From positions 1 to 40,020 of the forward strand of contig JAAFHC010000046.1 of the NCBI GenBank assembly GCA_010906935.1: 40,020 nt of DNA. The letters run 5' to 3'. The stretch is from Gelidibacter sp. GTDB taxonomy: Bacteria > Bacteroidota > Bacteroidia > Flavobacteriales > Flavobacteriaceae. Both the position numbers and the translations under genes were made by a program. The stretch's first letter is position 1; the number at the start of each line of letters is the position of its first letter. Shown piece after piece: positions 1 to 9,571 of this stretch. Below the pieces are notes generated by a model, which worked only from the letters and a program-made list of their open reading frames with translations, searched no databases and had not been told where the DNA came from.

Positions 1-345
1 GCAATATTAATTATAGTTGATTTACAACACATTGCGTCCATTGCGATTTCCTTAGCGTACATTGCGGTTAAATTTAAAGCTTTGTATTACAGATTATTAT
101 CATACTGATTAGTAACAAAACTTCTTTTATAATAAAAGATTTCTCTTAAAAAACGAAAAGTACACATCGCTCCGTTTGGCAAAGTAATTGTGTTTTCCCA
201 ACATCGTTTTAAGTGAGTTTTACTTCAGCAAATAAATGCAGCGAAAGCACCATTTCCGTTACGGCTGAGAGAGCGAGGCGGAAAATGGGGTCTGTTTGGC
301 GGTGATGGCATTAAAAAAATGGTTTTGGCAGTCAATTTTAAAATA
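1..345. other. Gap at left edge with no clear gene
   Basis: No convincing gene is visible. Plus-strand frame 1 is open from the window edge to a TGA at 106-108 (35 codons, hydrophobic), so the tail of an upstream gene is possible but unsupported. The word ATTGCG occurs four times in the first 70 bases. Positions 250-258 and 279-288 form an imperfect inverted repeat (CCATTTCCG against CGGAAAATGG) in a stretch that is more GC-rich than its surroundings, which could be a structured RNA or a REP-like element. The rest is AT-rich and featureless. Confidence 0.4.
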
Positions 346-948
346 TTAAAGTCCTAATTTTAGTTGTTCGGGCAGCAATCTGAACGATTTTCTGTGGTAA
401 ACGGTAATTCCAAATTCCCGAATGGCATTCCTGTGAAAAAGCGTTGGGTAGCCTTTATTTTGTTTCCAATGGTAGTTAGGAAACTCAAGATCAAGATTTT
501 GCATATAATCGTCACGGTATGTTTTTGCCAACACCGATGCCGCCGCAATGCTCATAAACTTGGCATCGCCTTTTACGATGGTGGTATGCGGAATATTTTT
601 ATACGGCTTAAATTTATTTCCGTCAACTATAATATGTTTAGGATCAATGGCCAGCTTTTCAATGGCCAAATGCATCGCCAAAATAGATGCCTGCAAAATA
701 TTGATTTCATCAATTTCTGTTTCAAAAACATAAGAAACGCCAAAAGCCAAGGCATTTTTTTCAATAAAAGGCCGCAAAATTTCCCGCTGTTTTTCAGTCA
801 ATTGTTTCGAGTCATTTAGCAAAGGATGGTAAAAATCGGTCGGCAAAATAACTGCGGAAGCCACAACGGGTCCAGCCAAACAGCCTCTTCCCGCTTCATC
901 TGTTCCTGCTTCAACCTTGTTTTTTAAAAACCATTTTTTAAGTGCCAT
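346..948 (-). CDS. rnhB: Ribonuclease HII
   Basis: This enzyme cuts the RNA strand of RNA-DNA hybrids and the 5' side of single ribonucleotides in DNA, acting in the cytoplasm. The protein is 200 residues, close to the family norm. The N-terminal signature [11 protein letters not shown] carries the first catalytic Asp-Glu pair. Further along come the IIVDGNKF segment with a third acidic residue and the [21 protein letters not shown] block typical of type 2 RNases H. The ATG at 948 is preferred over an in-frame TTG two codons upstream, because MALKKW is a normal start. There is no clear Shine-Dalgarno, as usual in this phylum. The gene is probably transcribed separately from the operon that ends at 1078. 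Confidence 0.96.
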
Positions 949-1027
949 AAGCAAATTCTAAGAATATTTGTCTTCCATTATTGCAAATAATATTACGTTG
1001 TCGGTCATTCTCTTTTACTTTGGCTAT

Positions 1028-1078
1028 GAACTGGTTTAAACTTTTTTTGATTGAAGCGAAAAAAGTTTAAACCAGTTC
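1028..1078. terminator. Perfect 20-bp inverted repeat ending the island
   Basis: Arms 1028-1047 and 1059-1078 are exact reverse complements with an 11-base loop. Each arm carries GGTTTAAAC plus a run of T or A next to the loop. The right arm overlaps the last base of the nuclease stop codon (1078-1080). It probably acts as a terminator or 3' stabiliser for the minus-strand operon. It lacks the usual T-tail outside the stem, so a mobile-element end or a protein binding site is also possible. Confidence 0.6.
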
Positions 1079-2109
1079 TATAAGTCATTTATTTCTTTTT
1101 CAATTAAACGGTATTTGTCTTTTACATCTTCTCCCGAATAGAAGTCTAGTAAGTCTTTTTTAGTTAATGTGCCTTGACTTAAAAAGCGTTTCAAATATTC
1201 TTGGTTAAATTCCATTAAAAGAACCGATTTTTCAAGTTGTTTTAATATTGCTTTATTGTTGTCAATGTTATTTAAAACCAACGATTTTATTGTTAAGACT
1301 TCATTGATGTCTTTAATAATTCGGTTTACCATCATAGCTAAAACGTCTTTATCCAATTCAATTTCTTTAGCGTTTAAAGCAATATCCCTAGCTAACATAT
1401 AGGCAATGGCCAAATTGCTGTAATCTCCTTTTTGAGAATTGATGATGGCAATAAAACCAACTCCCGGAATGTAGCCCACGTTTTCAAAATTCTTTAAAAT
1501 GGAATTTTCAACTAAAGAAATATCAAAAACAATCAAACTAACTTTGCCGTCTCTGTTGGCTTGAGTTTCTATCAACTGGCTCCAAGCAGTATCAGACTTT
1601 CTTGTAAAAATATCCTTGCTTTCAATATCTCCTAAACGAACGCTTTTATCAAATTTACATTCAATGGCAATTTTTAACTCAGGGGTTCCATTTACTTCAC
1701 AAATTATATCACCCGTTTTATTTCTGGGAATATTCCCTGCCGTGTTTCCAGTTAAAAACGCCCTGTCTTTTAATTTTTTATCCAAAAAATATTGATTTAA
1801 GAATGCTGCTATTTCATCTTCTGCCAATATTCCTTTAATGGTTGACTTATAAAAAAGCTCTTTCTTCATTTCAAAAATCATTTTCAAACTTTCTAATTCT
1901 GTTCCTAATTCATTGGATGTTTTTGAAAGAAACGATGATATACGGTCTTCCATCAACGCCAAAACACCAATGTAAATGGCGCGAAGCAATTTTTCATCTC
2001 TTTCACTTGCTGGAAGATTATCGAAATAATTAAAAACGATTCGATTTTCGATTTCGAATTCTTTGATTTCAATTCTCTTGAGTTGTTGGTTTATTTTTAT
2101 TGTTGACAT
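1078..2109 (-). CDS. Putative PD-(D/E)XK-fold nuclease, last gene of the island
   Basis: This is a 343-residue protein of no named family that I recognise. The N-terminal part (about 1-110) is mostly helical and charged. The middle carries a nuclease-like core: D134 in KTGDII, then a beta strand ending IAIECK with E150 and K152. That is the D-x(n)-E-x-K pattern of restriction-enzyme-fold nucleases. Next comes a segment with TAWSQLIETQANRDGK and SLIVFD, reminiscent of RmuC/DUF2130-type proteins. The C-terminal third is helical. Its ATG overlaps the stop of the OLD gene by one base (TAATG), so translation is probably coupled and the two proteins are likely made together. I infer a DNA-cleaving partner of the OLD protein. 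The active site reading is by eye, not from a profile search. Confidence 0.6.
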   Translation of the reverse strand: MSTIKINQQLKRIEIKEFEIENRIVFNYFDNLPASERDEKLLRAIYIGVLALMEDRISSFLSKTSNELGTELESLKMIFEMKKELFYKSTIKGILAEDEIAAFLNQYFLDKKLKDRAFLTGNTAGNIPRNKTGDIICEVNGTPELKIAIECKFDKSVRLGDIESKDIFTRKSDTAWSQLIETQANRDGKVSLIVFDISLVENSILKNFENVGYIPGVGFIAIINSQKGDYSNLAIAYMLARDIALNAKEIELDKDVLAMMVNRIIKDINEVLTIKSLVLNNIDNNKAILKQLEKSVLLMEFNQEYLKRFLSQGTLTKKDLLDFYSGEDVKDKYRLIEKEINDL

Positions 2110-3890
2110 TATCCAAATATAATTTTTATTTTATTTTCAAGACTTTCTGACAAAACAAATTCATTGCTTACGACATAGGATAGGGCTTTATGCGCCTTGT
2201 TTCTACCACCCGAATTTCTCAATCCTATTTCTTCTTCTATGTCATTTTCAAGTACAATCGATTTGCCAAAATTAATATCAATAGCGTTTTCAATTATTAT
2301 ATTTTTAGCATTAGAATCGGCTATCTTTTGAGTTGATTTTTCAATATGATTATCTTTATCATAAACAACTAAATATTTAATTTTAAACTTATTTAAAAGG
2401 TTTATATACAAATGAATACTATCCTTTCCTCCACAATCAATAATTGTATAATCGTATTTAAAAACATTTAATCTTTTTGCTATAAAAGGCAATATTGTTT
2501 TATCAGTTTGACCTTCAACAAGTATGACTTTTTTAGCAAAAAATAATTCACTTCTTTCTGGATTAATCCAATAACTTAAATTAAAACTTTTTATTTCTTC
2601 CGAATTTTCAAAAATATCATTTACATATTGCAAAACTTTTGTTCCATTTTCAATGTTTTCTTTCTTAACAATACAAATAGACTTATGATGTTTTAAATCT
2701 AAAAAAGAACTTGAATGTGTACATAAAATAACCTGACTTTCATCTTTTGACAAGTTTACTAGTGATGAAAATAATTCTCTTTGTGCTTGTGGATGCAAAA
2801 ATAGTTCTGGTTCTTCAAAAATGAAATATGTTGATTTTGATGCTTTTCGAGTAGAACCTTCCGAATCTTTATCATTTAATAAGGCTTCCCTATCTTGTTT
2901 CATGACCTTAGACCATGCTTTAATTAAAGCAAAAATTAAAGCTCTTTGCAAACCGTGACCTTTTCTTGAAATATCAGTTTTAATTCCATCATCAATTGAA
3001 ACATTTGCACCAACTCTGAATATATCATCAACATTTGGTGTTGAAATTTGAATATCTATTTTGGTATTCCAACTTATTAATTCCTCATCTAATAAATTTT
3101 CTAAAGATGCCAAATCTTTTGGTCTATCTTCGTTGATTTCACCATCATCATTTGTCTTGTTAAGAATTTTGGTCAATTGAATAATTTTCTCTTTAGCTTC
3201 TTTAAATTGTGGATTATGTTCAGAAATTTTATTGATTACTCTAGAATAAAGCTGGCTAAATAGAGTATTTCCTCTAGGGTTTAATTCATCGGAAGCATTT
3301 TTTACAGAGGGAATGAAAAACAAATCACCAAAACTTCCTTTTGCAACATTTTTTAATCCCAAGAAATTGGATTCTTCAAGAACATAGTTAAAACTTATAT
3401 CATCAATATTTGCAATTATATATTCATTCTGTGCTGTTTTAAATTGTTCAATTGTGATTGCACCTTTTATAGGCAAAAAATCGGCTAATGGAAGAGTTTC
3501 TGCAACTTCTCTTTTTTTGAAGTCAGAAATCTTAGATTCTTTTAACCAATCTTCAGTAGCTTCTTCAACGTAACCATTATATGAAAAGCTGCCATTTTTT
3601 AGAGCTGTCTTTCTAACTTTGATTTTATTGCTTGATGAAACATATTTTTTGAAAGTCGTATTTTCATATTCTGAAATTTCAGAAAATTCAATTTCGACCC
3701 ACAATTCCTCAGCATCACCATTAAAATCAAGATACTGATGATTTATTTCACCAAAAAAGAACAATATAGAACTTAAAACATTTGACTTACCATGATTATT
3801 TTGTCCAATAAAAATCATTAAATCTTGAAAACTTATATCTTCAGAGACTATTGACCTCCAATTAGAGACTTTTATTTTACTTATCTTCAT
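2109..3890 (-). CDS. OLD-family ATP-dependent endonuclease (AAA ATPase + TOPRIM)
   Basis: This 593-residue protein has an ABC/SMC-type ATPase domain followed by a TOPRIM nuclease domain, as in phage P2 Old and GajA of the Gabija defence system. Visible motifs are Walker A GQNNHGKS (29-36), a signature-like KGHGLQR (310-316), Walker B FIFEEPELFLHPQAQ (356-370), the H-switch LCTHSSS (389-395), and TOPRIM residues E459 (LVEGQTD) and D511/D513 (VYDKDNH). Known relatives dimerise, sense nucleotide or DNA state and nick or cut DNA. The usual Gabija partner helicase is absent. The adjacent genes are instead a KTSC-like protein upstream (3-base gap) and a PD-(D/E)XK protein downstream (overlapping). 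I am confident of the family and infer a phage-defence role. Confidence 0.88.
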   Translation of the reverse strand: MKISKIKVSNWRSIVSEDISFQDLMIFIGQNNHGKSNVLSSILFFFGEINHQYLDFNGDAEELWVEIEFSEISEYENTTFKKYVSSSNKIKVRKTALKNGSFSYNGYVEEATEDWLKESKISDFKKREVAETLPLADFLPIKGAITIEQFKTAQNEYIIANIDDISFNYVLEESNFLGLKNVAKGSFGDLFFIPSVKNASDELNPRGNTLFSQLYSRVINKISEHNPQFKEAKEKIIQLTKILNKTNDDGEINEDRPKDLASLENLLDEELISWNTKIDIQISTPNVDDIFRVGANVSIDDGIKTDISRKGHGLQRALIFALIKAWSKVMKQDREALLNDKDSEGSTRKASKSTYFIFEEPELFLHPQAQRELFSSLVNLSKDESQVILCTHSSSFLDLKHHKSICIVKKENIENGTKVLQYVNDIFENSEEIKSFNLSYWINPERSELFFAKKVILVEGQTDKTILPFIAKRLNVFKYDYTIIDCGGKDSIHLYINLLNKFKIKYLVVYDKDNHIEKSTQKIADSNAKNIIIENAIDINFGKSIVLENDIEEEIGLRNSGGRNKAHKALSYVVSNEFVLSESLENKIKIIFG

Positions 3891-3893
3891 AAA

Positions 3894-4115
3894 CTAATCA
3901 TATTTGAACTTAACAAATTGATTTATGTACCCATTAAGTCCACTTTCACTTCTTGCCAGTCTTTTCATGTTTTCTACGTGATTTTGTCCTGCTCTTCCTC
4001 CATAGCTGTATCTGTACGGTTTAGGATTTCCTTTAAAAATCTCAATAATAAAATCAGAACCTATTTCAAAGGCTGATGCACCTGAATCTCCTCCTGAATT
4101 TCTATATTTTTCCAT
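3894..4115 (-). CDS. Small KTSC-like protein
   Basis: This 73-residue protein begins with a glycine-rich MEKYRNSGGDSG. After that its pattern parallels the KTSC domain of its neighbours: a residue pair around FEIG, strand FIIEIFKG, a Tyr-rich strand (PYRYSYGG), a helix ENMKRLA, S-E-S-G-L-N, then INQFVKFKYD in the place of the KTSC ending IRNDYEY. I therefore read it as a divergent KTSC relative, which is inference. There is no signal peptide or membrane segment. It lies 2 bases from the KTSC gene and 3 bases from the OLD gene, so it is certainly in the same transcript. Its function is unknown; a nucleic-acid-binding or regulatory accessory role would fit. Confidence 0.7.
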   Translation of the reverse strand: MEKYRNSGGDSGASAFEIGSDFIIEIFKGNPKPYRYSYGGRAGQNHVENMKRLARSESGLNGYINQFVKFKYD

Positions 4116-4117
4116 TA

Positions 4118-4327
4118 CTATATTTTTTGATACTCATAATCATTCCTAATATTGGCTGAAAAATATTTTCCGTGTGATTCGGCATTCATCAATTCCTCAT
4201 AAACATTTTCGGGAACATCAAAATATTGATAAATTCCACCGTGGTTAAATTCTACTTCAAGAATTTCATTTTCTGCATCATATCCAATGGATGCTAAATT
4301 CGAGGATTCTACTGATTGTCTGTTCAT
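4118..4327 (-). CDS. Free-standing KTSC-domain protein
   Basis: This 69-residue protein is essentially one KTSC domain (named for the C-terminal region of some lysyl-tRNA synthetases). Landmarks are [30 protein letters not shown], the helix [15 protein letters not shown] and the end IRNDYEY. It is strikingly like the C-terminal end of the neighbouring 617-residue protein, which has [25 protein letters not shown] and [15 protein letters not shown], so one probably arose from the other by local duplication. It sits 4 bases after that gene and 2 bases before the KTSC-like gene. The function of KTSC domains is not established. Here it may compete with or regulate the fused copy. Confidence 0.85.
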
Positions 4328-4331
4328 CTTA

Positions 4332-6185
4332 TTATTTGGTTTTGGTATAATTATATTTTTTCTTTATTTCATTCATAAAGTAACTTCCTTTAGCAGCTGA
4401 GTTCATCAACTCCTCATACACCTTTTGCGGCACATCAACATACTGATAAACAGCTCCGTGGTGAAATTCTATTTCTAATATCATCTTTACCGCATCATAT
4501 CCAACTGAGGCAATATTTGAAGACGCTACCGGAATTCTTTTAATTCCTGAATTACTGTCTGTTGAAATTATGGCGAGTAATTTTTCACCTAAATCGGTGG
4601 TGTAATATTTTTGATTTTTGCTTCTGGGCTTATTGGGAATCGTTTGTTTCAACCAACCAATTTCTAAGAGTGGTTTTATATGATGATTATGATTCTTGGT
4701 GTTTTTGTAAAGCTCGATTTTCTCAAATATTTCATCATTTGATTTTGGCTCTGTACAATAGTTTAAAACCTTTTTAATTGTATCCTTAATCCTATCTCTT
4801 ATGGCTTCTCTATCTTTGTCTCCTAATTCAGAGACTGAGAGACTAAGATAGGGGTTTATGTCTTTCAATGCCTTGATTTTAAGCGAAATATCTTCGTCTC
4901 TTCTTAGGTCATCTTGAGAGCCTAAGATGGAATTGGTAAGTGGGTGAACAGGAAGCACACACAAGAAGTAAGCATTATTTTCATCTGTCTCAAATATAGG
5001 TGGGGGCGAACCGTTTTCCTCTAAGCTTTTGTGAATAATAGGCAATCCTGTTCCTCTGCCTTCCGTGAGTTTCAGTTCTTTTAAAAATCCACCTATTTTA
5101 CGGTTTCTATAATCTCGTGCTACTACTCTTTGTTTTTTCAGCATAGCTTGGTTAATAGGTGGCATAGGGCCAGGGAAACTCAATATTTCAATTTTATCTT
5201 TATGTATTTGAATCTCAACAGGGTTTTCACGCTCATAGCTTTTATGATAAACGGCATTGACAACCGCTTCTTCTATGGCTTGAAAAGGATAGTTGAAGAA
5301 GCGAATGGATTCAGCTTGCTTAGCTGATTTAACCACTAATTCTTCTACAATAGTTGATTTAAAATATTGTAAAACATCCCTAATCTGCTGAATGATAGAA
5401 CCAGTAAATATTTTTTCGATATAATCTTTCCCAACTTCATTTTTATGAATCAGTAAATCAACAGTTGCTCCAGAAAAGTATTTCTCGGGATGCTCATTAA
5501 ACAAAAGCAAACCCGCATTTGTAGGTCGTAATAATTCGTCAGAACCTTTGGCTATCATTAGATGTCTACACAATTCAGCGAATGGAATTTTTGTGCTTTC
5601 TTCATACAAAGAGCTCATCACTTCTTTTAAATAGTTTTGAATCAAACGCAAATTCAAATTATCTAAGGTAGCAGTCTGGTTTATTCGGTCGTCAAATGGG
5701 ATACGTGCCGTGAGTTCAATGAGTCTTCTTTCATCATCAGAACCATCTTTTACTTTTACCGTTTTCGAGCCGCGTTTAATATACATTGCTCTTTCAGTTC
5801 TTTTTTCACTTAAACTAATAGGAGCTTTGTAGGGTCTGTTATCTCCAGCGGGAGCAAAAACAACTAGAATATACCTCTCGTTCATTAAATAAGGTTGAAA
5901 AACAGGAACATAAACAGGACTTAACTTATAAGCCAGTTCAATCAGTTTTTTCTGAATGGCATCCAATTCTTGAACTTGCAAACCAATAGGCGGTAACTTT
6001 GCTTTCCCATTTTCTTCTTCTACACCAATAATGACATAACCTCCATCCCAATTGTTAATATCATTGGCATAGGCACATAAAGAGTGAATAACATCCTCAG
6101 GATTCCATCCTTTTTTTAACTCAATTCGATCCCATTCAACCGTATTGCCGTGCAGTAATTCATCTATGTTGATGGGTAATGCCAT
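4332..6185 (-). CDS. Schlafen AlbA_2 / GHKL ATPase protein with C-terminal KTSC domain
   Basis: This 617-residue multidomain protein starts with a Schlafen AlbA_2 domain (about 15-150, with E22[22 protein letters not shown] and YIKRGSKT). A middle region leads into a GHKL-type ATPase of the HATPase_c_4 kind, with N-box [14 protein letters not shown] (E306, N310, H314) and G-box EGRGTGLPI (375-382). Next is a probable winged helix (about 465-535), and a KTSC domain closes the chain (about 550-615). AlbA_2-HATPase proteins are common, usually annotated as transcriptional regulators or RecG-related, and appear in defence islands. The KTSC tail is an addition I do not know from described systems. 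The ATG at 6185 lies 8 bases after the frameshifted small gene. It is probably a sensor or effector of the island. Confidence 0.85.
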
Positions 6186-6193
6186 AGTGTTTA

Positions 6194-6386
6194 TTATATC
6201 AAATTAAAATCTATTGCCAATCCATTTGTTAATTTTTCATCAAACCAATGCCATTCCGATTTTTATAGGGACAAAACGATAAGTTCCTTTTTCCCAGCAA
6301 TAGAAATCTACCTCAATTTCATCATCCAAATTGATCGGAATATCCACAAACGCAGACCACATTTTTTCTAAATCAGGGACATTCAT
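6194..6386 (-). pseudogene. Small co-operonic gene broken by a one-base frameshift
   Basis: An ATG at 6386-6384 overlaps the TGA of the XRE gene (ATGA), the classic coupled arrangement. It opens a frame starting MNVPDLEKMWSAFVDIP that hits TGA at 6242-6240 after 48 residues. In the next frame a sensible continuation follows (EWHWFDEKLTNGLAIDFNLI) and stops with TAA at 6196-6194, just 8 bases before the next start. Removing one base from the T5 run at 6260-6264 (A5 on the coding strand) joins the two parts into a 63-residue protein. The rich W/D/E composition of both halves supports a real gene. The break may be a sequencing error, a phase-variable homopolymer or a true mutation. I do not recognise a named family. 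Confidence 0.65.
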
Positions 6387-6709
6387 TCCTTCTTGTTCGC
6401 TTTAATATATTTAGCTCTCTCCTCTGCTACTTTCAATGCTTCTATTCCTAAATCTTCATCTTGAATTTCATACAAAATCTTGTCGCTTAGGAACGAAACC
6501 AAAAGTTCGTCTGCATTGTAATCGTATATATTGGCAAGTTTCAGAACTACTACTTTTGTGATTTTCCTTTCTCCACGCTCCATTTTGCTCAAAATAGCAA
6601 CGTCAATGTCCAGCAAAGCAGCAACTTTCCGCAATGGAAGTTCCTTTTCTTCTCGAATGTGTCTTAACTTTTCGCCTATCGTTTCTGTTGACATAACATC
6701 TGTTGACAT
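6383..6709 (-). CDS. XRE-family transcriptional regulator
   Basis: This 108-residue protein has one Cro/C1-type helix-turn-helix (about 10-66). The sequence runs IGEKLRHIREEKELPLRKVA, then LDIDVAILSKMERGERK and VVLKLANIYDYNADELL. A charged C-terminal tail (residues 75-108) may be for dimerisation. Small regulators of this type often control restriction-modification or defence operons. It is the promoter-proximal gene of the minus-strand island, and its stop overlaps the next start. The ATG at 6709 is followed by a second in-frame ATG five codons on; the repeated MST comes from a DNA repeat, so either could be used. It probably represses or times its own operon. Confidence 0.88.
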   Translation of the reverse strand: MSTDVMSTETIGEKLRHIREEKELPLRKVAALLDIDVAILSKMERGERKITKVVVLKLANIYDYNADELLVSFLSDKILYEIQDEDLGIEALKVAEERAKYIKANKKE

Positions 6710-6711
6710 AA
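6686..6711. promoter_or_regulatory. Direct repeat over the XRE start: candidate operator
   Basis: TGTTGACATAA occurs at 6686-6696 and again at 6701-6711, a 15-base period that spans both possible start codons of the regulator. The right copy also contains ACATAATGT (6706-6714), a short palindrome. Such repeats next to a control-protein gene are typical autoregulatory sites, but the coding duplication alone could also explain the pattern. Confidence 0.4.
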
Positions 6712-6811
6712 TGTGTCTAAATTAGAAAAAGATTTTTGATTTTTAACAATTAATTCCAATATCTTTTTAACATTCTTTTGGCTTGCGCCCAACAACCTAA
6801 ATTCAAGTATT

Positions 6812-6894
6812 ACTATTGTTAATAGTTGAGCTGACTATTTAAGATTACCGCAAAAATTTAGTAAGGTTCATTTCATTCAAATAATTTACCTTTG
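6812..6894 (+). promoter_or_regulatory. Porin promoter region with palindrome
   Basis: TACCTTTG at 6887-6894 matches the flavobacterial -7 element TAnnTTTG. It lies about 17 bases before the preferred porin start at 6911, which would place transcription start near 6900. A short inverted repeat, ACTATT-GTT-AATAGT (6812-6826), lies upstream in the divergent gap shared with the XRE operon and may be a regulator site. No convincing -33 box was found. Confidence 0.5.
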
Positions 6895-6910
6895 TTGCTT
6901 TATGTACTAT

Positions 6911-9208
6911 ATGAAAAAACTATTCACAGTATTATTTTTTGGGTTTTATTTAATGACTGTCAACGCACAAATTATGAGACAACAAGAAGGCGGCGGCGTG
7001 TTTAAGGGTGACAGCACCACCTTTAAAAATGAAGTGCAAATTAAACTCAGTGGAAAAACCAAATATACCGATTACAAAATAATTTCCATAAATAACGACA
7101 CAACTGTTGTTGACACTACCTTAACCATTGCGAAAGATTATAAATTCAACTACATCAGAAAAGATAATTTTGAACTATTGCCTTTTGCCAATCAGGGCCA
7201 AACATATAATAGGCTGGGCTATAATTTTAACAATAATTCGCTATTTCCAACCATTGGCGCAAATGCAAAACACTACAATTATTACAAAATTGAAGATGTT
7301 TATTATTACGATGTTCCAACGCCAACTTCCGAATTTATGTACAGAACCGGAATGGAGCAAGGACAGGTTTTAGACGGATTTTTAACGATGAATACTTCCC
7401 GCCAATTAAATATTTTTATTGCCTATAAAGGATTGCGTTCTTTGGGAAAATACAGGAATTCTTTGGCAAGCCACGGGAATTTCAGAACTTCGGTTAATTA
7501 TCATTCAAAAAATAATTTCTATTCTTTAAAGGCCCATTATATGTCGTTTGATTTATCGAACAATGAAAATGGCGGATTAACAGAGGCTTCCATAGCCTAT
7601 TTTGAAAATAATGACCCAAATTATACCGACAGAGGCCGTTTAGAAGTGAATTATGTGGACGCTGATAATATGTTTGAAGGAAAACGTTATTTTTTGGATC
7701 AAAACATCACGTTATTTTCCCAAGAAAACAAAACTGAAAAGCATAATAACGAAATATCAGATAAGTTTAAAGCGTATAATACCATCATCAAGCAAATTGA
7801 AACCCTGAAGAAAGACACTATTTCTTATGTTTTGAAATCCAAAATTATCACGGATTCAAAAAGGCCAGATGCAACCAAAAAATTATCTCAATCAGCTAAA
7901 GAGGCCCTTGTTAAAACTGATATCATTAGAGAAAATCAAATTGTTAAAATTGATTCTTTGCCCAAAGAAATTGCTATAAAAGAAAAAGACACGCTAAAAC
8001 TTGATTCAATTCGTGACATTAAAATCAAGAAAATTGACTCTTTGCTAATTGTTGCTGCTGGGATTAAAGTTGATTCAAGTCAATTTATTGCTACAGACAA
8101 AAAATCAAATTACAGCATGAAACTCGGTCATACTTTTATGTATGAAACCCAACATTACCGATTTAAACAAACCGCTGTGAATCCGATTTTTGGCGAAGCT
8201 TATGAAAAAAATATTGTAGACCATACTTCTTATCAGAAAATGAACAATGAAGCTTACCTGCAATTTGATGCGCCTTATCTTGGGACTTTAAGGGCAAAAG
8301 CAAATTACTTTAATTATAATTATCACTATAACAGCATTTTATATTTGGATACCCAAACCATTCCAGAAAAATTAAAAGGAAACGTTATTGCCGTTGGTGC
8401 AGATTGGAAAACCAATTTCGGAAAATTATATTTGAATGCCGATGCGAGTACCATTATTTCGGGTGATATAACTGGAAACTCCATTAAAGGCTCTGTGATG
8501 TTCAAAAAAGACAGCGTTTATAATTTCAAAGGTTTTGTAGAAATCACTTCAAAAACAGCAGATTTTAACAAATTGTTGTACCAAAGTGATTATAAAGACT
8601 ACAACTGGCAAAACAATTTCAAAAACGAGCAAATAAAAAATATTGGCGCAGCATTTAGCTTTAAAAATTGGGCTAGCATTAACGCCAGTTATAACCTCAT
8701 CGACAATTATACTTATTTCGATGAAAATTCGCAGGCCGCTCAAGCCACAGAAACCTTAAACTATTTAAAGGTTACTTTAAGCAATTCCATCACGTTCAGG
8801 AAATTCACTTTGGATAACACCGTTATGTACCAAAATGTATCCAGCGGAGAATCGTTTTTTAGAGTTCCTGAAATTGTCACCAGAAACACCTTGTATTATT
8901 CCAATTATTTATTTAAAGGAAAACCGTTGTATTTGCAAACTGGGGTAACCGTCAAGTATTTTACCGAATTTAACGCCAATGCTTACAATCCGCTTTTAAG
9001 CGAGTTTGTGTTGCAAAATACGCATCAAATTGGAAATTTCCCTATGCTCGATTTTTTCGCCAATGCCCAAATACAGAGAACAAGGCTTTATTTAAAAGTG
9101 GAGAACTTTGGCGCCAGTTTTACAGGAAGAACTTACTATTCTGCGCCAACATATCCGTACCGGGATTTAACAGTTCGCTTTGGCTTGGTATGGAATTGGT
9201 TTATTTAA
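6911..9208 (+). CDS. Putative outer-membrane porin (Porin_10-like)
   Basis: This is a large beta-barrel candidate of 765 residues. A signal peptide, MKKLFTVLFFGFYLMTVNA, is followed by QIMRQQ. The body is rich in aromatic and alternating strands, with segments such as YYDVPTPTSEFMYRTGMEQGQ and NYFNYNYHYNS, and ends in NWFI, an aromatic C-terminus typical of outer-membrane barrels. Residues about 275-400 form a Lys/Asp-rich, low-complexity insertion that may be a periplasmic or surface loop. The start at 6911 is chosen over the ATG at 6902, because the signal peptide begins there and the promoter box lies at 6887-6894. The overall pattern is that of the flavobacterial 'putative porin' family; the solute is unknown. 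Confidence 0.8.
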   Translation: MKKLFTVLFFGFYLMTVNAQIMRQQEGGGVFKGDSTTFKNEVQIKLSGKTKYTDYKIISINNDTTVVDTTLTIAKDYKFNYIRKDNFELLPFANQGQTYNRLGYNFNNNSLFPTIGANAKHYNYYKIEDVYYYDVPTPTSEFMYRTGMEQGQVLDGFLTMNTSRQLNIFIAYKGLRSLGKYRNSLASHGNFRTSVNYHSKNNFYSLKAHYMSFDLSNNENGGLTEASIAYFENNDPNYTDRGRLEVNYVDADNMFEGKRYFLDQNITLFSQENKTEKHNNEISDKFKAYNTIIKQIETLKKDTISYVLKSKIITDSKRPDATKKLSQSAKEALVKTDIIRENQIVKIDSLPKEIAIKEKDTLKLDSIRDIKIKKIDSLLIVAAGIKVDSSQFIATDKKSNYSMKLGHTFMYETQHYRFKQTAVNPIFGEAYEKNIVDHTSYQKMNNEAYLQFDAPYLGTLRAKANYFNYNYHYNSILYLDTQTIPEKLKGNVIAVGADWKTNFGKLYLNADASTIISGDITGNSIKGSVMFKKDSVYNFKGFVEITSKTADFNKLLYQSDYKDYNWQNNFKNEQIKNIGAAFSFKNWASINASYNLIDNYTYFDENSQAAQATETLNYLKVTLSNSITFRKFTLDNTVMYQNVSSGESFFRVPEIVTRNTLYYSNYLFKGKPLYLQTGVTVKYFTEFNANAYNPLLSEFVLQNTHQIGNFPMLDFFANAQIQRTRLYLKVENFGASFTGRTYYSAPTYPYRDLTVRFGLVWNWFI

Positions 9209-9420
9209 CTCCTATCCTAAATCCTTTCCTAAGGAAAGGACTTGTTGTGCACTGTGAGTTTCAATTTGTACTTTTTTGTTAAATGTTAAACGTTATATGT
9301 TATTCGTTGAGATGAACTTCAAACTTTTAACCTTCAACTTATCCCCAGCCTTTTCTAAAGAAAGAGTTTTTTCTTTGGCACAATAAGTAAATATTTATTA
9401 ACTTTAGTAGCCAATTTATT
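9209..9420. other. Intergenic gap with degenerate repeats
   Basis: Together with the array that follows, this is the spacer between the convergent porin and nhaC genes. It contains short palindromes (CCTTTCCTAAGGAAAGG around 9223-9239; CTTTTCTAAAGAAAG around 9351-9365) and degenerate relatives of the TTTTAAC word. No gene is visible. The palindromes may serve as terminators for the porin. Confidence 0.5.
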
Positions 9421-9421
9421 G

Positions 9422-9571
9422 AACTTTTAACTTTTAACTTTTAACTTTTAACTTTTAACTTTTAACTTTTAACTTTTAACTTTTAACTTTTAACTTTTAA
9501 CTTTTAACTTTTAACTAACTTTTAACTTTTAACTTTTAACCTTTAACCTTAAACCTTTAACTTTTAACTTT
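9422..9571. repeat. Heptamer microsatellite (AACTTTT)n
   Basis: There are thirteen perfect copies of the 7-base unit AACTTTT (9422-9512). After a 4-base slip at 9513-9519, further units continue and decay up to about 9571. The array runs into the 3' end of nhaC, whose stop codon (9529-9531) and last ~14 codons lie in it. Shorter arrays of the same unit occur at about 24113-24141 and 24289-24366. A heptamer is not a multiple of three, so length change within the coding part would alter the antiporter's C-terminus. Confidence 0.95.

Follow-up and report, generated by a model that had tools for sequence, protein, structure and literature searches.

A predicted PD-(D/E)XK nuclease gene stands directly behind differing kinds of defence gene in an island of Gelidibacter sp. 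and in related loci

Proteins of the OLD family unite an ABC ATPase and a TOPRIM domain in one chain and, in the parts of the source at hand, are sorted by genetic context into those encoded by a single gene, those of Gabija, those of retrons and, as a proposed class 4, those of PARIS (PMC10568477). A protein of the same architecture is encoded within a 40,020-nucleotide (nt) stretch of contig JAAFHC010000046.1 from Gelidibacter sp., hereafter the window, in a minus-strand block of seven genes (1078-6709) re-read here from the sequence. In contrast to the four classes, this OLD protein is preceded by a small KTSC-like protein and followed by a 343-amino-acid (aa) protein predicted to be a PD-(D/E)XK nuclease, hereafter the hub, a context found in none of them. 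Comparison of related loci indicates that the hub sits directly behind differing kinds of defence gene, and with middling confidence the island is read as two exchangeable defence cassettes and a conserved 3' hub nuclease that would serve ATPase and effector cassettes through small partner proteins. The cassettes attached to the hub would be [XRE, AlbA_2-GHKL-KTSC, KTSC] and [KTSC-like, OLD]. The features of the island are as follows, the Pfam scan having covered six of its seven proteins, that is, all but that of the short open reading frame (ORF); numbers beginning with L denote loci used for comparison.

6383-6709, minus strand: XRE/Cro-type helix-turn-helix regulator, 108 aa (Pfam HTH_3, 1.1e-9; equivalent position in L014)
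6240-6386, minus strand: short ORF, 48 aa (57 aa in L024, 62 aa in L014)
4332-6185, minus strand: protein with SLFN AlbA_2, HATPase_c_4 (GHKL), Fic-like_C and C-terminal KTSC domains, 617 aa (Pfam; homologues in L014, L015, L020, L024 and L061)
4118-4327, minus strand: free KTSC protein, 69 aa (Pfam KTSC, 2.2e-28, 98.2 bits)
3894-4115, minus strand: KTSC-like small protein, 73 aa (18 relatives aligned; distant KTSC profile match)
2109-3890, minus strand: OLD-type ATPase-TOPRIM protein, 593 aa (Pfam AAA_15, 2.2e-37, and OLD-like_TOPRIM, 6.2e-20; PADLOC Old, 2.3e-69)
1078-2109, minus strand: hub protein, 343 aa, predicted PD-(D/E)XK nuclease (predicted model, relatives, comparison of loci)
1028-1078, no strand: inverted repeat or hairpin at the operon end (arms 1028-1052 and 1054-1078, 25 nt, 92% complementary)
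951-6850, no strand: inserted island, approximate limits, between rnhB and a porin gene (similarity to same-genus relatives)

Beyond the OLD family, the hub loci recall several described systems. Nezha of V. cholerae consists of two genes, according to the part of the paper at hand (PMC11559045). The commonest neighbours of the hub are likewise SIR2 and HerA, and two representatives match the SIR2 and HerA models of PADLOC strongly; SIR2 and HerA are, however, not in the island of the window, and in the related loci they are accompanied by KTSC and by the 343-aa protein. One passage mentions, as unpublished, neighbourhoods of HerA and KTSC in which an endoDNase replaces the sirtuin (PMC9503650). 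Hub loci resemble these in uniting HerA ATPase, KTSC and endoDNase, but have sirtuin and nuclease together, and the same nuclease family also stands behind OLD, AAA_13, SMC-like and reverse transcriptase (RT) proteins; this comparison with the 343-aa family is by description only, the passage naming no sequence. A search of the literature on KTSC with HerA and on KTSC in defence found nothing nearer than that remark. Varying HerA/FtsK domains are, in the extracts at hand, described as captured by cores such as DndH (PMC10853773, PMC12839542). The idea of a DNA-pumping ATPase feeding DNA to associated nucleases is common to both, whereas hub loci appear to keep the small nuclease-like protein fixed while whole effector cassettes vary. 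Conserved cores with exchangeable effectors are also known from Lamassu, with its SMC protein, and CBASS, with its nucleotide cyclase; in the hub loci, by contrast, the core is a predicted PD-(D/E)XK protein, encoded last.

Eighty-five hub loci were annotated (the window, L008, L009, L011 and L014-L094; L010, L012 and L013 were dropped as duplicate contigs), their neighbours being recognised with hidden Markov models built from clustered neighbours of those same loci. For 83 of the 85 hubs a recognised gene ends at most 55 nt upstream (median 2 nt; 21 overlaps), although in L052 it is a 71-aa AAA_13 remnant only; the two exceptions are L064, where no effector is present, and L087, where the hub is preceded by an AbiA-like RT at a distance of 1 nt. 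SIR2-HerA is the most frequent neighbour, as the sole recognised class in 33 loci and with other classes in five, followed by AAA_13 and OLD (14 each), SMCa (4), SMCb (3), AAA721 (3) and AlbA_2 alone (1), with two classes in 11 loci and none in 2. The names given by PADLOC to single representatives are SIR2, HerA, PDC-S06 (AAA_13), PDC-S46 (AAA721, 1.5e-255), RT_UG39 and AbiA, and both SMC-like representatives match LmuB weakly. In L036 (938-1909) a PIN_8 nuclease domain fused to KTSC lies directly before the hub, and in L069 (6249-7994, UG39-type) and L083 (6296-7996, same cluster) an RT lies between OLD and hub. In L015 (3700-7800) the SIR2 and HerA genes are broken up, through decay or sequencing errors, into several ORFs, while hub and KTSC are intact. 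Downstream, 34 of 83 loci have another ORF of 100 aa or more on the same strand within 55 nt; L037, L045, L046, L047, L048, L051 and L068 carry Wadjet-like, putatively JetABCD, sets there, representatives of which give DUF3375, SbcC/MukB-like and sub-threshold JetD_C matches in Pfam.

These spacings bear upon the proposal that the gene for the 343-aa protein provides a nuclease defence by itself, located at the 3' end of defence operons but working independently of the genes before it. Such a gene might well follow very different partners, as this one does, and a SIR2-HerA-KTSC set does exist without it; it should, however, also stand alone or elsewhere, yet 83 of 85 loci have a recognised gene within 55 nt before it, in 21 cases overlapping it, and of the remaining two only L064 is without an effector, L087 having its RT 1 nt away. 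We regard this proposal as unlikely.

Comparison of the window with individual loci illustrates how the genes before the hub vary. The complete set of seven genes is found again in L014, with its order preserved and without common flanks in the stretch compared, which argues that the island is not a chance assembly; identity between the two is 98% for the hub, 83% for KTSC, 79% for XRE, 71% for AlbA_2 and 64% for KTSC-like, while the OLD proteins differ (33% over 162 aa). The closest OLD among 16 loci compared is that of L032 (75%), the hub of which is 85% identical. In L061 the AlbA_2, KTSC, KTSC-like and hub genes align and AAA_13 takes the place of OLD; in L024 KTSC-like and OLD are missing and AlbA_2 and KTSC are present. 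The original prediction had asked for co-occurrence elsewhere, and neighbourhood comparison found it, fully in L014 and partly in L061, L020, L024 and L015. It had also proposed that the seven genes form one obligate new system. Although the gene order of L014 favours that proposal, it is now very improbable, for each sub-block is found without the others: AlbA_2 with KTSC but without OLD (L024), OLD without AlbA_2 (L032, L077), and KTSC-like preceding AAA_13, an SMC-like protein or AAA721 instead of OLD (L061, L034 and L050, respectively), and even in L014 a different OLD stands beside a nearly identical hub. Nor does the hub appear as the partner of OLD that had been suggested to replace the Gabija helicase; it is not specific to OLD and forms the constant part across differing partners.

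The change of partner falls close to the hub start. Alignment of the window with L061, L024, L014, L015, L020 and L034 yields a hub block running from 1074-1118 to 2097-2132, the ORF being 1078-2109. In 37 pairs of loci the partners differ although the hubs share 85% identity or more over 240 nt; averaged over these pairs, ungapped identity is 0.32-0.36 on the upstream side of the hub start codon, 0.49 across it and 0.82-0.94 on the downstream side. A quick tree of 83 hubs, of which 81 are labelled, leaves 32 of its 80 inner branches open; it requires 36 changes of partner class, against a minimum of 8 and a mean of 42.4 for shuffled labels. By these comparisons the gene before the hub is exchanged many times, with some clustering on top.

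Characterization of the hub itself began from an absence of family matches: none exceeds the cut-off in Pfam, NCBIfam or PADLOC (the best in Pfam being a sub-threshold 0.2), none was obtained with its profile against PDB sequences, the best against PHROGs is a 0.19 match, and phage records yielded none. A literature search, with bioRxiv and most subscription journals outside its coverage, found no description of this nuclease family. The predicted structure contains the alpha-beta-beta-beta-alpha-beta core of the PD-(D/E)XK fold between long helical N- and C-terminal parts, and the assignment rests on this model rather than on a sequence family. E97, D134, E150 and K152, whose catalytic roles are presumed from the motif of this superfamily, are invariant in 80 of 80 aligned relatives (picked by similarity, 52 further relatives lying beyond those listed) and supply the E, D, E-x-K signature; the protein is thus predicted from its model to be a nuclease cleaving nucleic acid. 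Values of dN/dS, the ratio of nonsynonymous to synonymous substitution, are 0.019-0.045 in the five pairs computed of seven tried, rough figures with dS at 1.0-1.4 in those five and saturated in the other two, and on this measure the hub is under very strong purifying selection. Among 395 genomes of the phylum of the window its profile found four, including that of the window itself, one of them holding a 33-residue remnant. An apparent KTSC-hub fusion in L094 (a 415-aa ORF) is an artefact of the ORF start, the extra N-terminal residues giving no KTSC match.

A non-cleaving role for the same protein, as a regulator or safety factor restraining or licensing toxic effectors, would suit a protein that is shared by loci with NADase, nuclease and RT effectors alike, and the long helical parts of the model could be binding surfaces. 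The putative catalytic residues, however, never vary in the 80 sequences and therefore favour catalysis, and a single antidote against so many effectors is hard to imagine, so that a regulator of this kind is rather improbable.

Small proteins recur in the hub loci, and KTSC is also met with in fusions. Of the 85 loci, 73 encode a KTSC, KTSC-like or WYL-like protein as a separate ORF; of the other 12, L040 and L046 have KTSC fused to HerA, L063, L067, L071 and L082 have less than 1.7 kb of upstream sequence, and none was recognised in L023, L027, L064, L072, L083 and L087. The fusions place HerA and a C-terminal KTSC in one chain (L040, 5908-8004; L046, 5904-7991), which suggests that free KTSC binds HerA. 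Membership of KTSC (PF13619), taken as a score above the Pfam gathering cut-off of 25 bits, holds for the 69-aa protein and for the 617-aa protein (KTSC 2.3e-23, 82.1 bits; SLFN_AlbA_2 E-value 8.7e-13; HATPase_c_4 1.8e-11). The 73-aa protein has no Pfam match and falls outside PF13619, and profile-profile comparison with KTSC (60.7% probability, E-value 8.3e-5) suggests distant kinship only. The label WYLa derives from a Pfam match of 16.3 bits, below the threshold of 21.8, and from a 94.2% match to the WYLb profile. WYL domains are ligand sensors, KTSC occurs in fusion with effectors of three kinds, and KTSC or WYL-like proteins precede most others, for which reason the small proteins are read as probable sensors or adaptors; KTSC and WYL profiles show no kinship, and assigning them one functional kind is therefore guesswork. 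In the passages at hand KTSC is called both a DNA-binding (PMC9503650) and an RNA-binding domain (PMC7824862). KTSC and KTSC-like of the window (3894-4327) also match parts of the phage protein families phrog_3292, phrog_17428 and phrog_24656 ('head and packaging'), so that both parties to the phage-host conflict may possess the domain. Elsewhere in the genomes of the family a different KTSC protein is widespread (e.g. genome G000, contig C79, 22580-22732), with an open frame of about 150-175 aa in most genomes and a weaker score; KTSC above 70 bits occurs in 6 of 149 family genomes, three of which have the hub, in the same operon.

Several observations weigh against a constant hub nuclease serving exchangeable cassettes. 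Firstly, the model is only moderate, and a Foldseek search with it returned no PDB match at an E-value of 0.001 or below. Secondly, 17 pairs of the same partner class also drop in identity upstream of the hub, less deeply (0.46-0.53), in part because the ungapped comparison does not allow for insertions and deletions. Thirdly, partner classes are clustered on the hub tree, none of 200 shuffles being as low as 36 changes, and identities of hub and partner are weakly correlated for SIR2 (Mantel r 0.24), HerA (0.21), KTSC (0.28), OLD (0.22) and AAA_13 (0.50), values for KTSC-like (0.17), WYLa (0.16), SMCa (n=4, 0.93) and AlbA_2 (n=6, -0.31) being not significant; exchange is therefore not wholly free. 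Fourthly, profile kinship among the P-loop classes (AAA_13-AAA721 94%, SMCa-SMCb 88%, OLD-SMCb 81%) implies that independent partners are fewer than their names. To these may be added PIN-KTSC in L036, AlbA_2 with KTSC in L024 and the lack of an effector in L064; an RT stands directly before the hub in L069 and L083, where OLD precedes the RT, and in L087, which is without a recognised ATPase or KTSC.

Finally, SIR2-HerA-KTSC occurs without the hub in two of five HerA matches among 295 genomes of the class (about 1.2 kb behind KTSC inspected). The hub is also missing from this set in the family genomes G012 and G003 and on plasmids of Sphingomonas, Bradyrhizobium and E. coli. For that cassette, at the least, it is therefore an optional addition. 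The plasmid SIR2-HerA pairs carry their third, small KTSC gene 2-17 nt downstream (L138, 7889-8107; L139, 7911-8120; L140, 6827-7036), and family genome G019 has a lone KTSC. Relatives of the island OLD at 1e-30 in the 295 class genomes were limited to the window's own, while plasmids hold nine records below 45% identity; AlbA_2 relatives on plasmids number three, below 60% identity, and that of Prosthecochloris, matching residues 1-538 without the KTSC end, has no annotated KTSC or SIR2/OLD neighbour.

The position and domains of the island agree with the original prediction in coordinates and Pfam matches. Its account of the packing was right in kind, the gaps from AlbA_2 to the hub being 4, 2, 3 and -1 nt and XRE overlapping the short ORF by 4 nt, but its 'gaps of 2-8 or overlaps' was inexact, 54 nt separating the short ORF from AlbA_2. 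The short ORF is shorter in the window than in L014 and L024 and is apparently frame-broken. A hairpin at the operon end was likewise found, as the 1028-1078 repeat; its role as terminator is our reading, and a terminator scan does not list it. A promoter scan of the window hardly exceeded shuffled sequence (32 against a mean of 26.5, standard deviation 5.3).

Limits of the island come from relatives. A search with rnhB matched 20 of 21 genomes, 12 of them of the same genus. Eleven of these twelve loci were compared (L143-L153; L158 is truncated at the end of its contig), and in each one rnhB lies next to the porin gene in divergent orientation. The spacing is 143-317 base pairs (bp) in six measured loci; coordinates put it at about 82-84 bp in four others and at about 880 bp in L153, enough to hold something small. 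Similarity of the window to six relatives ends near 950 and restarts at 6851-6911, from which the island is judged an insertion between the two genes. This clean insertion, a conserved nuclease-like protein next to variable cargo, and the XisH-family structures among the weaker structural matches of the hub model would fit a mobility factor, a homing-like nuclease that spreads neighbouring cassettes by cutting a target. No common target emerged, however: the L014 operon lacks flanking DNA common to the window in the stretch compared, other loci lie beside restriction-modification-type or Wadjet-like genes, and no target duplication was seen by eye in the flanks inspected. The 80 aligned copies, themselves picked by similarity, are moreover intact, with the one remnant found elsewhere. 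Mobility is thus a quite improbable function for the hub.

None of the named systems compared accounts for the set, as originally supposed, and the locus is likely a defence locus with two nuclease folds, one of them from the predicted model. Gabija was rejected as no helicase domain, expected as the UvrD-like GajB, is among the Pfam and PADLOC matches listed for the six proteins; GajA models do match the island OLD (best listed 4.3e-36), more weakly than Old. PARIS was set aside since TOPRIM lies in the same chain as the ATPase (AriA model 1.3e-40), and no AriB is among the PADLOC matches listed for the six proteins (for OLD, the best 25 of 95). Single-chain AriAB fusions do exist, according to the part of the source at hand (PMC10568477). 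For retron Eco8, the effector model scores 70.7 bits against a cut-off of 250, the six proteins scanned contain no RT domain, and Rfam gives no match at gathering score in window positions 1-9500. Nezha is excluded by the lack of any SIR2 or HerA match listed for the six proteins, the AlbA_2 protein matching only SIR2-pAgo architectures via other domains, and a class 1 stand-alone OLD by neighbours 3 and -1 nt away.

HerA-NurA, Rad50-Mre11 and PtuAB are pairs in which a nuclease partners a P-loop protein, and by analogy the hub may be such a partner of DNA-handling P-loop proteins. The P-loop protein of a cassette (OLD in the island; elsewhere HerA, AAA_13 or SMC-like) would engage invading DNA or DNA ends using ATP, with the small KTSC, KTSC-like or WYL-like proteins acting as sensor or adaptor subunits. 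The hub nuclease would nick or resect the engaged DNA, and this cutting would either destroy the DNA or make a substrate that licenses the cassette's own effector, namely TOPRIM cleavage in the island and NAD+ loss with SIR2-HerA; the XRE protein probably represses the operon. A wider reading, possible though held tentatively, is that one nuclease family is a general executioner or licensing subunit that plugs via KTSC/WYL adaptors into many immune machines (SIR2-HerA, OLD, PDC-S06, PDC-S46, SMC-like, DRT/AbiA and AlbA_2), mostly in Bacteroidota, its cassettes recruited by recombination at the start codon around one common core.

Defence catalogues list SIR2-HerA, OLD, PDC-S06, PDC-S46, DRT and AbiA separately, and the present comparison suggests that several bacterial immune systems have a common working part. 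If true, an unnamed and extremely conserved nuclease-like gene common to all of these in one set of bacteria would mean that a single core can be used by different sensors and effectors. The hub would then offer a simple bait gene for further effectors, in the form of whatever lies 0-20 nt upstream of it, and the role in immunity of KTSC, a domain of unsettled function, would become a testable question.

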